Of a DNA stretch of 64,000 nucleotides, positions 59,183 through 64,000 are shown one piece after another (the first letter of the stretch is position 1; every line of letters begins with the position of its first letter). Made by a program: the position numbers and the translations under genes. The DNA comes from Acidobacteriota bacterium (GTDB lineage Bacteria; Acidobacteriota; Terriglobia; Terriglobales; Acidobacteriaceae): assembly GCA_021846275.1 (NCBI GenBank), contig JAJZBZ010000001.1:806001-870000 (forward strand). Direction: 5' to 3'. The notes below the pieces were generated by a model. That model saw only the letters and a list, made by a program, of their open reading frames with translations. It was not told the origin of the DNA and did no database searches.

Positions 59183-60064
59183 ATGATGACTGCTGCAGCC
59201 CGCCTGCGAAAGACGCTTGGACAGCGTGGATTGGTGATTGCTCCTGGAGCGTTTGACTGCCTGTCGGCCAAGGCTGTGGAGATGGCGGGATTTTCCGCGC
59301 TCTACATGACTGGGATGGGCACATCGGCAAGTCGGCTGGGCCTGCCGGATTATGGGCTGGCGACGATGACGGAGATGGTGAACAACGCGCACGCTATCTC
59401 GGCTGCGGTTCACGTTCCGGTGATTGCCGACGCGGACACGGGATATGGGAACGAACTGAACATGACGCGCACGATTCACGAGTATGAACGCGCTGGCGCG
59501 GCGGGCGTGCATATCGAAGATCAGGTATTCCCGAAAAAATGCGGCCATCTCGGCGGCAAGCAGGTGATACCTCGTCGGGAATATATCAGCAAGATTGCAG
59601 CGGCGGTGAAGGCGCGGCGCGATCCGGAATTTGTCATCATCGCGCGCACGGATTCCAACGCGGTACTGGGTTTTGAGGAAGCTGTGACACGCGCGAATGC
59701 GGCGCTCGATGTGGGCGCGGACCTTGCCCTGGTGGAGGCTCCTGAGGATTTTGAGCAGATGGCCAGCGTTCCGCAGCGCGTGCATGGCCCCTGCGTGCTG
59801 AACGTGCTGATCGGAGGCAAGAGTCCGCTGGCACCGCTGGCGCAGGTGGAAGAGATGGGATACAGGATGGCCCTGCTCTCCGATGCGATGATTGGAGCCG
59901 CCGTGTTTGCCTATGAAACGATGATGGAGCAGGTGCGACGCACTGGAGAGACACTCCGTTTCCAGCGCAGATTCACGCCGCGTGAACTCTTTGAGCGTTT
60001 CGACAGCGAGCGGTGGGATGCTCTGCGACCAGAGGAAGAAAATGTGGAAGCGGTGGCGGGTTGA
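59183..60064 (+). CDS. isocitrate lyase / PEP mutase superfamily protein
   Basis: A 293-residue protein from ATG 59183, decided by GAGG upstream; a second ATG follows immediately. It is a TIM barrel of the 2-methylisocitrate lyase/carboxy-PEP mutase family: P-G-A-F-D near residue 21, D-A-D-T-G-Y-G with Mg-binding Asp, I-E-D-Q-V-F-P-K-K-C-G-H with the catalytic K-K-C-G-H, and I-A-R-T-D-S. The length and KKCGH fit 2-methylisocitrate lyase, carboxyvinyl-carboxyphosphonate mutase or oxaloacetate-type lyases; these cannot be separated here. No prp genes are adjacent. Confidence 0.85.
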   Translation: MMTAAARLRKTLGQRGLVIAPGAFDCLSAKAVEMAGFSALYMTGMGTSASRLGLPDYGLATMTEMVNNAHAISAAVHVPVIADADTGYGNELNMTRTIHEYERAGAAGVHIEDQVFPKKCGHLGGKQVIPRREYISKIAAAVKARRDPEFVIIARTDSNAVLGFEEAVTRANAALDVGADLALVEAPEDFEQMASVPQRVHGPCVLNVLIGGKSPLAPLAQVEEMGYRMALLSDAMIGAAVFAYETMMEQVRRTGETLRFQRRFTPRELFERFDSERWDALRPEEENVEAVAG

Positions 60065-60087
60065 AGCGTCGATAGCGAGCGAAGACA

Positions 60088-60118
60088 AAGGCCCATGCGC
60101 ATTGCGCGCATGGGCCTT
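60088..60118. terminator. bidirectional terminator between PEP-mutase-family gene and secG
   Basis: A 13-bp perfect stem, AAGGCCCATGCGC with its complement, around a 5-nt loop. On the minus strand the tail reads TTTGTCTT, which suits secG termination. It also follows the plus-strand stop by 23 nt. Confidence 0.85.
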
Positions 60119-60151
60119 GCCGTGTTGCGTTTGCCGCGTCGCGTGCCGCGG

Positions 60152-60457
60152 CTATTTGCCGCTTTGGGCAGGAGCCGAAGTCTTGATGCCGGAGAGCACG
60201 GAGTTGCCGGAGTTGGTGTTGCGCAGATAGAGGATGGTGAGCGAGATGGAGGTGACCATGAAGATGGCCGCCGCCCAACTCGTGAGCCGTGTGAGCAGGT
60301 TGGCGGCGGCGCGCGGGCCAAAGGCAGTCTGCGAACCCTGACCGCCGAAGGTTCCGGCGAGATCGGCGCTTTTGCCCTGCTGAAGAAGAACGACGCCAAT
60401 CAGAAAGAAGCAGACGATCACATGAACAGCGATGACTGCGTAGAGAAGAAAGTGCAT
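60152..60457 (-). CDS. secG: preprotein translocase subunit SecG
   Basis: A 101-residue protein with two membrane helices (F-L-L-Y-A-V-I-A-V-H-V-I-V-C-F-F-L-I-G-V and A-A-A-I-F-M-V-T-S-I-S-L-T-I-L-Y) and the conserved V-L-L-Q-Q-G-K loop followed by G-G-Q-G-S-Q-T-A-F-G. Third component of the SecYEG channel. AAGG lies 8 nt before the ATG. It lies 49 bases downstream of tRNA-Leu(GAG) on the same strand. Confidence 0.93.
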   Translation of the reverse strand: MHFLLYAVIAVHVIVCFFLIGVVLLQQGKSADLAGTFGGQGSQTAFGPRAAANLLTRLTSWAAAIFMVTSISLTILYLRNTNSGNSVLSGIKTSAPAQSGK

Positions 60458-60506
60458 GCTGGTTTACCTTCTGGAATTGCGCGAGGAGTGCGCCCCGGAA
60501 AAATTT

Positions 60507-60591
60507 TGGTGCGGAAGGGGGGACTTGAACCCCCACGCCTTTCAGCGCAAGCACCTCAAGCTTGTGCGTCTGCCAATTTCGCCACTTCCGC
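60507..60591 (-). tRNA. tRNA-Leu (anticodon GAG)
   Basis: An 85-nt class II tRNA with encoded CCA. Acceptor GCGGAAG pairs with CTTCCGC; anticodon stem CAAGC/GCTTG with loop TTGAGGT gives anticodon GAG (reads CUC/CUU); long variable arm CGCTGAAAGGCG; T-stem GGGGG/CCCCC. It lies just upstream of secG. Confidence 0.95.
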
Positions 60592-60652
60592 AGTGTTGTG
60601 ACAATCATGAGTATACCAAAACTCATCCCTGTCGGTTTGCACGCACAGCGGG

Positions 60653-62470
60653 CTAAGGCCTCGGCCTGGCCGATGACGCCTGCATCTCCATGATCTTTTG
60701 ATAGAGGCTGTTGCGGGTCTCCAGGCGAGCGATGGCGCGCGTGACGTAGCGGATGTGGAGGCTGACGCCACCGTCTGTTGGACGCAGATGGATTTCAGCC
60801 GTTGCATTCGCATGCTCGTGGGCGAGGGGACCGAAGGAGTGACGCCAGTCTTTTTCGGCCTTTTGAGCGTCGGCATCTGTGGCCTCGCGGACAAGCTTGT
60901 GAATGGCGTCGGCGGCGACCCATGTGGTTTCGGATTTAGGCAGGTTGATGGTCAGGTCGTCCCACATCCACTGTTCGGATGTGGAGAAGCAGGAGTACTG
61001 GCCGGTGATGGGAAAGCTGTTCAGCATGGTGACGCGGCGTCCGGTGGGGTGGGCATCGTCGGGCGAATCGCCCATCTCCAGCAACGTGGTGCGGAAGAGC
61101 CGAATTTCGATGACTTCGCCGGTGGTTCCGTTGATCTGGACGAGGTCGCCGATGCGAATGCCGCCTTTGCCGATGAGGACGAACCAGCCGACGAAAGCCA
61201 GAAGAAAATCCTGGAATGCGACGGTGATGCCGGCGGTGGCGAGGCCGATGATGGTCGTCAGGTGATCGGGAATGCCGAAGACCACGAGGAGAATAAGGAG
61301 CACGCCGAGAAGCTGAATGGAAACCTCGGCGATGGCGCGCAGCGTGTGAAGCCTGCGCTGGTCCATGGTGGATCGGCTGGTCCACTGGCGCACGAGCGTG
61401 TCGGCAATGAGCATGCAGATGAGGATGATGCACAGCCAGAGTGCGGATCGTGCGATGAGATGGAGCAGGATGCCGTGTTGCAGCTCAATCTGATTGCCCC
61501 ACTGGCGGTAGGTGATAGCAAGCCGGTTCTCGGTCTGGATGCGGTCGTTGAGGATGGTAAGCAGTTCGCGGTAGGATGCCCGCTCGCGGAGCGAGGCGAG
61601 CGCATCGACGGAATTGGCGGAGGTTGCGCCAAGACCGGCCAGCGCGGCGGCGTTTTCGCTGGCGGTGCTAGCGCTTTGCAACTGGTTCGCAAGCTGCTTG
61701 AGCGAGGCGGCATCCTGCGTGGCGCGTATGCGCGCCTGGCGGATGGCTTTGCGGCGGTTGCTCTGCATCAGCCATGTATCGATCTGGCTGGCAAGCGTGT
61801 GGTTTCTCTGGACAACAATAGCTGCCGGATCAAAGGGCTTCCGCGCCTGTTTGTCGTAGTCGACGAGGGTGGCTTCGCGCGCCTTCAACTGGCGCTCAAT
61901 CTCAGCGCGCGGGTCGCCGGAGACGCGGGCCAGAGCGGCTTCTGTGTCGCTGAGAATATCGGTGTCCAGGCTGAGCTGCGCCTTCCAGATATTGAGGTTG
62001 CCGGGAACCTGAGCAGCGGCAGAATGGTCGGATGCCGCCGGATGACTGAGCGCATCGACGTGAGCCTGATCCTGCGCGACCAGTTGCTGAATCTGCTGGA
62101 CCTTCTGGGCGAGCGCGAGAGCTGGTCCGGTCAACTGGCGCTGGTCCATGTCGGCCTGGCGCAGTGCGAAGCTGAAGGCGAGATCGACTTCATGATCGGC
62201 CAGACGCTCGGCGGTGCGCGCGAGGCGTTGCTCTTCCGCGGTGGCGGCAAGCGGAGCAAGCGCCTGCGCCGTGAGCCAGGGCGTCTGGTCCACTTGTACT
62301 GCGCTGGTTTTGCCGCTGGTGGACTGAATCGCTGACTGGTTGAGAAATGGAAGATGGGTCATCGTCTTGCGCGTGGTCCAGAGCAGGAAGACGCTGAGGG
62401 CGGCAAGAATGACCAGGAAAGCAAGAGTGGCGCTGCGTGAACGGGAAACGGGTGCAACGCGATGCGACAT
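60653..62470 (-). CDS. MscS-family mechanosensitive channel with long periplasmic N-domain
   Basis: A 605-residue protein from ATG 62470 with GGGAGGA 7 nt upstream; the ATG at 62491 has none. An N-terminal helix (L-A-F-L-V-I-L-A-A-L-S-V-F-L-L-W) is followed by about 280 residues of coiled, Gln/Ala-rich periplasmic domain. Then come further helices and the pore-type TM3 (T-T-I-I-G-L-A-T-A-G-I-T-V-A-F-Q-D-F-L), and the beta domain G-D-L-V-Q-I-N-G-T-T-G-E-V-I-E-I. Such channels release solutes on osmotic downshift. It starts 26 bases after the threonine dehydratase stop, so they are probably cotranscribed. Confidence 0.88.
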   Translation of the reverse strand: MSHRVAPVSRSRSATLAFLVILAALSVFLLWTTRKTMTHLPFLNQSAIQSTSGKTSAVQVDQTPWLTAQALAPLAATAEEQRLARTAERLADHEVDLAFSFALRQADMDQRQLTGPALALAQKVQQIQQLVAQDQAHVDALSHPAASDHSAAAQVPGNLNIWKAQLSLDTDILSDTEAALARVSGDPRAEIERQLKAREATLVDYDKQARKPFDPAAIVVQRNHTLASQIDTWLMQSNRRKAIRQARIRATQDAASLKQLANQLQSASTASENAAALAGLGATSANSVDALASLRERASYRELLTILNDRIQTENRLAITYRQWGNQIELQHGILLHLIARSALWLCIILICMLIADTLVRQWTSRSTMDQRRLHTLRAIAEVSIQLLGVLLILLVVFGIPDHLTTIIGLATAGITVAFQDFLLAFVGWFVLIGKGGIRIGDLVQINGTTGEVIEIRLFRTTLLEMGDSPDDAHPTGRRVTMLNSFPITGQYSCFSTSEQWMWDDLTINLPKSETTWVAADAIHKLVREATDADAQKAEKDWRHSFGPLAHEHANATAEIHLRPTDGGVSLHIRYVTRAIARLETRNSLYQKIMEMQASSARPRP

Positions 62471-62496
62471 GAAACGATCCTCCCAATGCAATGCGC

Positions 62497-63711
62497 TTAC
62501 TGTATGCGCTCGAAACGGAAACCCGCCTCGGCGAGGGCGTGGCTAATCGCGGTGATGTGCGAAGCTCCTCGCGTTTCGAGGGTAACATCGATGACCGTTT
62601 CGGCGAGACTGACGCCGTAATACGCACGGTTGTGGATGGTTTCAACGATATTGGCGCGCTCGCGGGCCAGAATCTCGGTCAGTTGCAGCAGAGCGCCGGG
62701 GCGATCCAGCAGGTAGACGCGGATGCGCAGCAAGCGTCCGTCTTTTACCAGGCCGCGCTCGATGATCTTGGCCAGCAGCGTGACGTCAATGTTTCCTCCG
62801 CAGACGAGGACGGCCGTGCGCTGGCCGCGCAGCGAGGTTTTGGCCTGAAGCAGGCTGGCAAGCGCAGCCGCGCCGGCACCTTCGGCGAGAGTTTTTTCGT
62901 GCTCCAGCAGCATGAGAATCGCAGAGGCAATCTCCTCGTCGTCGACGGTCACGATTTCGTCCACGAAGCGGGTGACGAGCGGCAGGGTGTGCTCGCCGAC
63001 GCGGCGCACGGCGATGCCGTCGGCGATGGTGGCCTGCGCGGCGATGGTGATCGGTTTCCCAGCCTCGCGCGCGCGCAGCATCGACGGCAGTTTTTCCGGC
63101 TCGACGCCGACGACGCGAATGCGGGGATTGCGCTCCTTGAGCGCGCAGGCGATGCCTCCGATGAGGCCGCCACCGCCGATGGGCACGACGACGGCTTCGA
63201 GATCGGGCACCTGCTCGAACAGCTCCAGACCGATGGTTCCCTGCCCTGCGATGACCAGCGGATCGTCGAAGGGATGGATGAAGGCGAGGCCAAATTCGGC
63301 GCAGCGACGGATTGCTTCGTCGCAGGCCTCGTCGTAGTTTGCTCCGTGCAGAATGACCTCCGCGCCGAAGGCTCGCGTGGCGACAACCTTGACCAGCGGC
63401 GTGGCCTGCGGCATGACAATCTGGGCACGAATGCCGAGCCTGGCCGCATGAAAGGCAACGCCCTGCGCGTGGTTTCCGGCGGACGCCGCGATGACACCGC
63501 GACGGCGCTCGTCTTCGGTCAGGGTGAGCAGCTTGTTCAGAGCGCCGCGCTCCTTGAAGGCTCCGGTGCGCTGGAGGTTTTCCAGCTTGAGAAAGATTTC
63601 AAGACCCGTGCGCTCGGAGAGATGATGGGAAAGCTGGCAGGGCGAGAGATGAATTGCGTTGCCCAGCCGGATGCGCGCGGCTTCGATGGTCTCAAGATTG
63701 ACGGTTGGCAC
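62497..63711 (-). CDS. ilvA: threonine dehydratase with C-terminal ACT domain
   Basis: A 404-residue PLP enzyme. GTG 63711 is chosen because GAGGAG lies 7 nt upstream; ATG 63726 in the same frame has no ribosome site. PLP Lys in Q-R-T-G-A-F-K-E-R-G-A (residue 53), S-A-G-N-H-A-Q-G, G-G-G-G-L-I-G-G phosphate loop, and a C-terminal ACT domain (L-D-R-P-G-A-L-L-Q-L-T). It deaminates threonine to 2-oxobutyrate, the first step to isoleucine. The short single-ACT form is often called TdcB-like, but the upstream attenuator with Ile codons argues for a biosynthetic role here. Confidence 0.9.
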   Translation of the reverse strand: MPTVNLETIEAARIRLGNAIHLSPCQLSHHLSERTGLEIFLKLENLQRTGAFKERGALNKLLTLTEDERRRGVIAASAGNHAQGVAFHAARLGIRAQIVMPQATPLVKVVATRAFGAEVILHGANYDEACDEAIRRCAEFGLAFIHPFDDPLVIAGQGTIGLELFEQVPDLEAVVVPIGGGGLIGGIACALKERNPRIRVVGVEPEKLPSMLRAREAGKPITIAAQATIADGIAVRRVGEHTLPLVTRFVDEIVTVDDEEIASAILMLLEHEKTLAEGAGAAALASLLQAKTSLRGQRTAVLVCGGNIDVTLLAKIIERGLVKDGRLLRIRVYLLDRPGALLQLTEILARERANIVETIHNRAYYGVSLAETVIDVTLETRGASHITAISHALAEAGFRFERIQ

Positions 63712-63753
63712 TTCGAGGCTCCTCATAAGGTTTTATAACTGTTTCCTGCAATG

Positions 63754-63783
63754 AAAAAGCCATCTCCGCTTTGCGGCGATGGC
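63754..63783 (-). terminator. attenuator terminator upstream of threonine dehydratase
   Basis: On the minus strand, GCCATC-G-CCGC, loop AAA, GCGG-A-GATGGC (one internal mismatch), followed by TTTTT. It lies between the leader peptide stop (63814) and the dehydratase start. A competing pairing GGCTGTG (63829-63835) with CACAGGCC (63781-63788) would unzip its 5' arm. Confidence 0.8.
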
Positions 63784-63813
63784 CTGTGTGGAATCCAGAA
63801 TTCTTTGGATGGA

Positions 63814-63897
63814 TCAGGCTTTTCTCCGCACAGCCGAAATGGCACCGCTAATTCGCATGGCGGCGGTAATTCGACGGCGGATGAAGAACAGAAGCAT
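63814..63897 (-). CDS. 27-residue leader peptide of the threonine dehydratase attenuator
   Basis: ATG 63897 to TGA 63814-63816 encodes 27 residues beginning M-L-L-F-F-I-R-R-R-I-T-A-A-M. It holds four Ile codons (positions 6, 10, 16, 20), two Leu, one Val and one Thr, with many Arg. It lies in the expected place: after a promoter, before an antiterminator/terminator pair, ahead of an isoleucine-pathway gene. No Shine-Dalgarno sequence precedes it; the start codon lies 9 nt after the -10 box, so its mRNA may be leaderless. Product acts by being translated, not as a protein. Too short to judge by homology. Confidence 0.65.
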   Translation of the reverse strand: MLLFFIRRRITAAMRISGAISAVRRKA

Positions 63898-63906
63898 GTT
63901 GAGCGA

Positions 63907-63936
63907 AGTAGAGCAGAGAAGTGAGCGATCCGTCAA
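63907..63936 (-). promoter_or_regulatory. promoter of the leader peptide and threonine dehydratase
   Basis: On the minus strand, TTGACG (-35, 63931-63936), 18-bp spacer, TCTACT (-10, 63907-63912). The predicted start falls within 3 nt of the leader peptide's ATG. Confidence 0.55.
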
Positions 63937-63979
63937 GCAAGCGCGGGGATGCGGACGAGCACGACGCGCGCGGCGAACT

Positions 63980-63994
63980 TACAATGAAGCCATG
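63980..63994 (+). promoter_or_regulatory. possible -10 box and start codon of a plus-strand gene running off the window
   Basis: TACAAT (63980-63985), 6 nt, then ATG CTG AGC at the edge. The spacing matches the leaderless pattern seen elsewhere here. Only three codons are visible, so the gene is not established. Confidence 0.25.
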
Positions 63995-64000
63995 CTGAGC

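Follow-up and report, generated by a model that had tools for sequence, protein, structure and literature searches.

Probable isoleucine-sensing leader-peptide attenuator upstream of the threonine dehydratase gene ilvA in Acidobacteriaceae

The window, namely, the whole 64,000-nucleotide stretch analysed here from an Acidobacteriota bacterium (contig JAJZBZ010000001.1), possesses on its minus strand, between positions 63936 and 62497, a promoter, a 27-codon ORF with isoleucine codons, a U-tailed terminator, and ilvA, in this order as read from the sequence. The features are as follows.

63936-63931, minus strand: promoter −35 element TTGACG, followed by an 18-nt spacer to the −10 element (sequence)
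63912-63907, minus strand: promoter −10 element TCTACT, with the leader ATG 9 nt downstream
63897-63814, minus strand: leader peptide ORF of 27 codons, MLLFFIRRRITAAMRISGAISAVRRKA, ending in the stop codon TGA at 63816-63814
63873-63868, minus strand: first CGA-ATT (Arg-Ile) pair, codons 9-10 (sequence)
63855-63850, minus strand: second, conserved CGA-ATT pair, codons 15-16, with the probable sensing codon (comparison of close loci)
63830-63815, minus strand: candidate antiterminator 5′ strand (UGCGG, GA, GCCUG), extending over the final codons of the leader and its stop
63810-63793, minus strand: candidate AUCCA/UGGAU mini-hairpin within the antiterminator loop (folding of this sequence only)
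63786-63772, minus strand: candidate antiterminator 3′ strand (CAGGC..UC..CCGCA), overlapping the terminator 5′ arm
63785-63757, minus strand: intrinsic terminator hairpin of 8 + 4 pairs with a 1x1 mismatch and an AAA loop
63758-63754, minus strand: terminator U-tract TTTTT (sequence)
63723-63719, minus strand: ilvA Shine-Dalgarno site AGGAG (sequence)
63711-62497, minus strand: ilvA, biosynthetic threonine ammonia-lyase (threonine dehydratase), with a GTG start

IlvA scored over the cut-offs of the threonine ammonia-lyase models NF005600 and TIGR01127. A preliminary description of this DNA had named the promoter, the ORF with four isoleucine codons, the terminator with its TTTTT tail, and ilvA, and we found all of them. 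A consensus promoter and terminator scan listed neither the leader promoter nor the leader terminator, which we attribute to its rules (an A at position 2 of the −10 element and an unbroken stem); this miss was not counted against the element.

Isoleucine occupies codons 6, 10, 16, and 20 of the leader. Among 54 distinct leaders, isoleucine accounted for 242 of 1699 codons (14.2%), compared with 6.1% in 12 genes of the window genome, and the other two frames of the same leaders contained 1.8% and 1.1% isoleucine with 31 and 41 stops, respectively. Because a CGAAT pattern was used to collect these leaders, their Arg-Ile counts lean toward the CGA-AT pair; six of the leaders contain only one or two isoleucine codons. 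AUU was the favoured isoleucine codon in the leaders (167 of 242), and AUC prevails in the 12 genes (252 of 328). The frame-specific enrichment and the in-frame stop are indirect signs that the leader may be translated. Ahead of the leaders of relatives, a TTGA(C/T)-N16..19-hexamer arrangement was picked without a shuffle control, and the −10 element lay 6 to 15 nt from the leader start in 52 of the 56 promoter rows with a distance below 40 nt (64 rows in all, with a few loci represented twice; rows above 40 nt were left out as mis-picks). Automatic picking missed the GTG starts in L015 and L046. Such spacing leaves little space for a leader Shine-Dalgarno site, suggesting that this mRNA is probably leaderless or almost leaderless.

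The terminator had a predicted folding energy of −18.9 kcal/mol (z −5.6), which none of 200 shuffles equalled. It also formed when the whole leader (63900-63752) was folded as a single strand (z −2.7; 2 of 200 shuffles equal). The segment 63850-63752 folded as a single long alternative hairpin of −41.2 kcal/mol (z −4.3), in which the last leader codons pair with the terminator, and the segment 63850-63786, from which the terminator arms are excluded, showed ordinary folding (z 0.3). The conserved form of the alternative pairing joins UGCGG..GA....GCCUG (63830-63815) with CAGGC..UC..CCGCA (63786-63772). Because its 3′ strand overlaps the terminator 5′ arm, this antiterminator and the terminator are mutually exclusive, and the earlier observation that the antiterminator strand overlaps the last codons of the leader holds for this pair. 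The pair listed first in the preliminary description, GGCTGTG/CACAGGCC (63835-63829 with 63788-63781), is complementary in the window but absent in its nearest relatives, L006-L010, and was dropped as not conserved. Hairpins inside the leader ORF, possibly of a protector (1:2) type, appeared in single folds of some sequences.

Covariation in the hairpins, which had been proposed as a check, was modest in the terminator; in the antiterminator it was seen between subclades but not inside the close group. Across 29 relatives, 98.3% of 289 terminator cells were paired, with double changes in 8 cells at 2 of the 10 pairs. The paired percentage, the double-change cells, and the covariation score exceeded those of all 500 shuffles; the counts of pairs and of pair types did not. 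In a MAFFT alignment of the close group, 84.0% of the antiterminator cells were paired and the covariation counts showed no excess over shuffles, partly because two length classes were misaligned. We therefore applied an alignment-free swap test, in which the arms of 50 sequences paired with their own partners at −18.3 kcal/mol, compared with a permuted mean of −15.75 (sd 0.35); relatedness being ignored, none of 20,000 permutations was as low, and the same held for 21 divergent sequences alone (0 of 20,000). In eight of the 50 sequences, the own arm gave weaker pairing than the arms of others did on average. The set retained the poor cases L036 and L039 and omitted L057, L183, and L186, in which no terminator was detected. 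Between groups, the letters of the helix change on both sides (GCGGG/CCCGC, UGCGGAGA/UCUCCGCA, GCGGGU/ACCCGC, and GGGAGCGG/CCGCUCCC). By eye, the pairing was visible in 44 of the 50 single folds and not seen in L036, L039, L130, L131, L134, and L141.

The close set consisted of 29 ilvA loci, namely, all 28 distinct loci with at least 79% IlvA identity plus L068 (75%); six apparent copies, judged by eye, were omitted (L034, L035, L067, and L114-L116). The upstream alignment within Acidobacteriaceae that had been suggested earlier revealed that the frame, the isoleucine codons, the stop position, and the placement of the start persist at these loci. The isoleucine leader was kept in 28 of the 29, the exception being L036, which has no isoleucine codon in the corresponding frame; the same is true of its relative L282. 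All 29 have the terminator hairpin, that of L039 without a U-tract. CGA precedes the sensor codon in 27 loci and CGA-ATT is found in 25; L010 and L047 have ATG (Met) at the sensor codon and isoleucine codons earlier in the leader, and L039 has CAA at the preceding position. In 22 of 28 measured loci, the distance from the sensor codon to the stop is 36 nt; taken together, in-frame stops 33, 36, or 42 nt past this codon occur in 24 of 28, and those 48 or 51 nt past it in four. The antiterminator strand, located by pattern match in 28 loci, starts 21 nt after the first base of the sensor codon in 16, 23 nt in 6, 19 to 20 nt in 2, and 31 to 33 nt in 4. By our reckoning of the footprint, a ribosome paused at the sensor would end just short of the strand, and one at the stop would cover it. 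The slightly more distant L050, L051, and L054 (72-76% identity), which are not in the close set, lack the leader.

Terminator-like hairpins are common, the consensus scan listing 2 in 2 kb against 1.8 expected, and the element could be no more than an intrinsic terminator preceded by a chance ORF, with ilvA expression constant or driven by another promoter. We consider this very unlikely, given that the start spacing, frame, isoleucine codons, stop position, and alternative pairing all persist in close relatives and that the same leader also precedes a citramalate-synthase-like gene, as described below.

In the 12 genes, no other CGN codon is as rare as CGA (15 of 364 Arg codons), and the CGA count at the close loci is unbiased by the motif, these loci having been gathered via protein similarity. 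This prevalence, together with the conservation of CGAATTA at the nucleotide level, would also suit a riboswitch or protein-binding leader in which the near-invariant CGAAUUA is the recognition motif and the isoleucine codons are incidental. However, the motif stands in frame within isoleucine-enriched ORFs, the part before the terminator in the window folds like shuffles, and Cys- or Thr-rich leader loci keep the architecture, some of them without the motif. An Rfam search (4227 families, 60000-64000, E up to 5) found no T-box or other family at threshold; it listed one tRNA match and one snoRNA match far under its gathering score. We therefore give this explanation very little credence as well. 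A tRNA-Leu(GAG) gene is located at 60510-60591 on the minus strand of the window.

For the distribution of the leader, ilvA orthologues were taken from the genus (15 genomes), from a family sample, and from named contigs, including one of Occallatibacter savannae AB23 (L043), which carries the element. In the family sample, 91 of 150 genomes had a match at 1e-110, and 87 of those loci were examined. The leader was read in 28 of the 87, and a terminator was found in all but two (L183 and L186); the other 59 have no such leader by eye, many of them with another gene ending closely upstream of ilvA and one (L142) nearly without upstream sequence. The anticipated conservation across the family is thus evident in the close group but is not general. 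Leaders in which Arg-Ile-(Ser/Thr/Ile) stands mostly 10 to 13, and at most 20, codons ahead of the stop were found in divergent genera (e.g., L118, L121, L128, L140, L149, L195, and L059); a search for this motif also returns chance matches at places without the element, such as the upstream region of L036, L154, L176, and L184. A covariance model of the close group, searched against 397 genomes of the order, gave matches with E of at most 0.01 in 70, all from the same family, the matches including reverse-strand shadows of the palindromic terminator. Within the genus, the model matched in 12 of 15 genomes, which are those holding a whole or partial ilvA orthologue. The sole convincing match in the window's own genome was the ilvA leader (other matches, E >3), and no such element was seen by eye at leuABCD-ilvDBHC, at hom, or in the stretch before aspartokinase (behind asd).

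Among the best 30 model places, 19, matched by contig, were loci used to build the model. Five of the other 11 adjoin ilvA (L210, L214, L218, L220, and L221), five adjoin a pair of PaiB-like and citramalate-synthase-like genes, and one is at a contig edge. Sixteen further, weaker places were opened, with gene names there taken from our reading of the translations; seven lead to ilvA and one (in G202) to a citramalate-synthase-like gene. Six genomes (G110, G205, G212, G265, G311, and G202) have the isoleucine leader before a small PaiB-like gene and a citramalate synthase homologue (L224, L227, L229, L230, L233, and L281), and none of the six has an ilvA orthologue: their best IlvA match was 195 to 221 bits or none, compared with >680 bits for orthologues. 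Their completeness is 92 to 100%. Eight other genomes in the same comparison likewise have no ilvA orthologue; the loss is therefore not peculiar to the six. The citramalate-synthase-like protein of G110, the one protein scanned, best matched TIGR00977 with 306 bits, under the cut-off of 450, and its activity is not certain. The PaiB-like gene had no NCBIfam match and was identified by our reading of its sequence. It lies downstream of ilvA in 12 of 23 leader-ilvA loci, often directly, from which we infer the loss of ilvA from a leader-ilvA-paiB operon; the citramalate-synthase-like gene was found in none of these 23 loci within the stretch examined. Although citramalate synthase is not related to threonine dehydratase, either enzyme leads to 2-oxobutanoate, from which isoleucine is made. 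The retention of one leader over two unrelated enzymes with the same product points to isoleucine as the sensed signal.

The features by which an attenuator is recognized were found together at this locus: a short promoter-proximal ORF with codons that match the pathway, a terminator before the structural gene, and an exclusive antiterminator over the 3′ codons of the leader. The preliminary description had interpreted the region as an attenuator, and the conservation of the leader, the exclusive pairing, and the leader before the citramalate-synthase-like gene support this interpretation. With the promoter-like motif, the ORF and its codons, the terminator, and the linkage to ilvA or the citramalate-synthase-like gene taken into account, we consider it very probable that the element is a ribosome-mediated transcription attenuator that senses the charging of isoleucyl-tRNA and controls the step committed to isoleucine. 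The course of events that we infer is as follows. RNA polymerase would start a few bases upstream of the leader ATG, and a ribosome would follow from this nearly leaderless start. When Ile-tRNA is plentiful, the ribosome would reach the UGA and cover the GCGG...GCCUGA region, masking the antiterminator 5′ strand; the GGCCAUC..GAUGGCUUUUU hairpin would then form and transcription would stop ahead of ilvA. When Ile-tRNA is scarce, the ribosome would stall at the isoleucine codon after CGA, or at an earlier one, and would leave free the antiterminator strand, which is 19 to 23 nt downstream in most close relatives. The free strand would pair with the terminator 5′ arm, and read-through into ilvA would thus respond to isoleucine.

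Arg-Ile-Ser/Thr/Ile recurs mid-leader or near the end in most of the leaders found, in searches that used this motif, as would also be expected of a TnaC-like nascent-peptide arrest, with the ribosome halted by the Arg-Ile-(Ser/Thr/Ile) peptide once this has bound free isoleucine or an intermediate. This is extremely unlikely, since few residues outside the motif are conserved, leader length and the C-terminus vary across relatives, and arrest by the end product would give read-through at plentiful isoleucine, the wrong sign for a biosynthetic gene.

The proposed attenuation has known counterparts. In the enterobacterial ilvGMEDA, thr, and trp attenuators, a stalled ribosome picks the antiterminator over the terminator, and the regulatory codons match the end product of the pathway, as proposed here. 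By contrast, these attenuators belong to Proteobacteria, sense several branched-chain residues or Thr plus Ile, and usually add a protector hairpin as a third structure, along with a Shine-Dalgarno site for the leader. The ilvBNC attenuator (ilvL) of Corynebacterium glutamicum, as described in the available parts of the sources, has a transcription start one nucleotide from the leader start codon (PMC11857589) and resembles the present element in its ribosome-mediated attenuation, short leader ORF, and overlapping terminator and antiterminator (PMC11857589; ilvB-II uORF, PMC11109978). It differs in being from Actinobacteria, in its leader MTIIRLVVVTARRLP, whose control codons are those for Val and Leu, and in controlling ilvBNC instead of ilvA (PMC11857589). 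A sequence relation between ilvL and the acidobacterial leader was not evident to us. Mycobacterial cysteine-rich uORFs, in the available part of their description, are likewise short ORFs carrying regulatory codons, from a genome with many leaderless transcripts, and they parallel the Cys-rich leaders of relatives described below; however, they concern another amino acid, other genes, and another phylum, and their authors call the regulatory role speculative (PMC4633059).

Other leader types were observed at several of the weaker model places and elsewhere. L267 (G041:C9) and L268 (G258:C20) have Cys-rich leaders (MNLSRQMQCRCCSCCCTCAHTGAGERLT and MCVRVCCRATCVCPGARDCLI), accompanied in both by a terminator and an alternative pairing, before siroheme/cysH-like and sulfite-reductase-like (sulfate-assimilation-like) genes, and are probable cysteine attenuators. 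The window's own genome has, ahead of a PAPS-reductase-family gene (possibly sulfate adenylyltransferase), a small ORF that includes Cys codons (MIRAAHNTSCCRLSMPIDGCSL; L303, C11, 1171-1239). Thr- and/or Ile-containing leaders with a terminator and an antiterminator were seen before aspartokinase genes in L266 (G025:C13), L271 (G028:C178), and L273 (G084:C260). In L270 (G035:C37), an open frame ending in VIIISISVVIVIAITGGAGT and a hairpin lie at about 2540-2710 on the plus strand, opposite to the model match, with an ilvD-like gene next, and may be an Ile/Val attenuator. The model match in L269 (G035:C65) is before an aspartyl/asparaginyl-tRNA-synthetase-like gene and has an ORF with three Asn codons. 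L272 and L277 (G318 and G367) have an isoleucine leader and then a small ACT-domain-like gene; ilvA comes next in L272 and was not seen in the stretch examined of L277.

The recurrent CGA may itself be relevant to sensing. The 43 tRNA genes of the window's own genome include Arg anticodons ACG, CCG, TCT, and CCT but no TCG; if the assembly is complete for tRNAs, CGA would thus be read by an inosine-34 tRNA, as in most bacteria according to the available part of PMC3711424. An inosine:A pair in the P site could slow decoding before the isoleucine codon and lead to over-sensitivity to Ile-tRNA charging. The replacement of CGA by CGG, CAA, or CAG in some relatives (L183, L191, L039, and L272) counts against this codon-pair idea. 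The same 43 genes include no tRNA-Ile(GAU), perhaps because the assembly misses ribosomal RNA operons. We propose only tentatively, as a joint reading that may well prove wrong, that the near-invariant CGA has a function ahead of the sensing AUU and that the leader belongs, as the Ile type, to a group of nearly leaderless attenuators (Ile, Ile/Val, Thr, and Cys) in Acidobacteriota, retained when the citramalate-synthase-like gene replaces ilvA.

In the open-access literature, as covered by titles and the beginnings of abstracts, we found no leader-peptide attenuator for ilvA, cimA, or Acidobacteriota, in agreement with the preliminary description, which knew of none for this lineage. This kind of mechanism is known; where it occurs here and how it is built are new to us. 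Premature terminators (attenuators) were predicted in Acidobacteria by Naville and Gautheret in 2010; in the available part of that study, almost no predicted acidobacterial attenuator had an associated function, and ilvA is absent from the main text (PMC2965389). If the present interpretation is true, it would assign a function to one group of these orphan terminators of Acidobacteriota, a phylum that includes many soil bacteria. One attenuator over two unrelated enzymes of the same step would be a natural experiment, revealing which amino acid is sensed without recourse to the laboratory, and the Cys-, Thr-, and Ile/Val-type relatives suggest a wider use of such control in the group. If CGA is functional, it would be a codon-pair amplifier inside an attenuator, and the recurrent CGA-AUU pair offers a testable proposal on how attenuators set their sensitivity.
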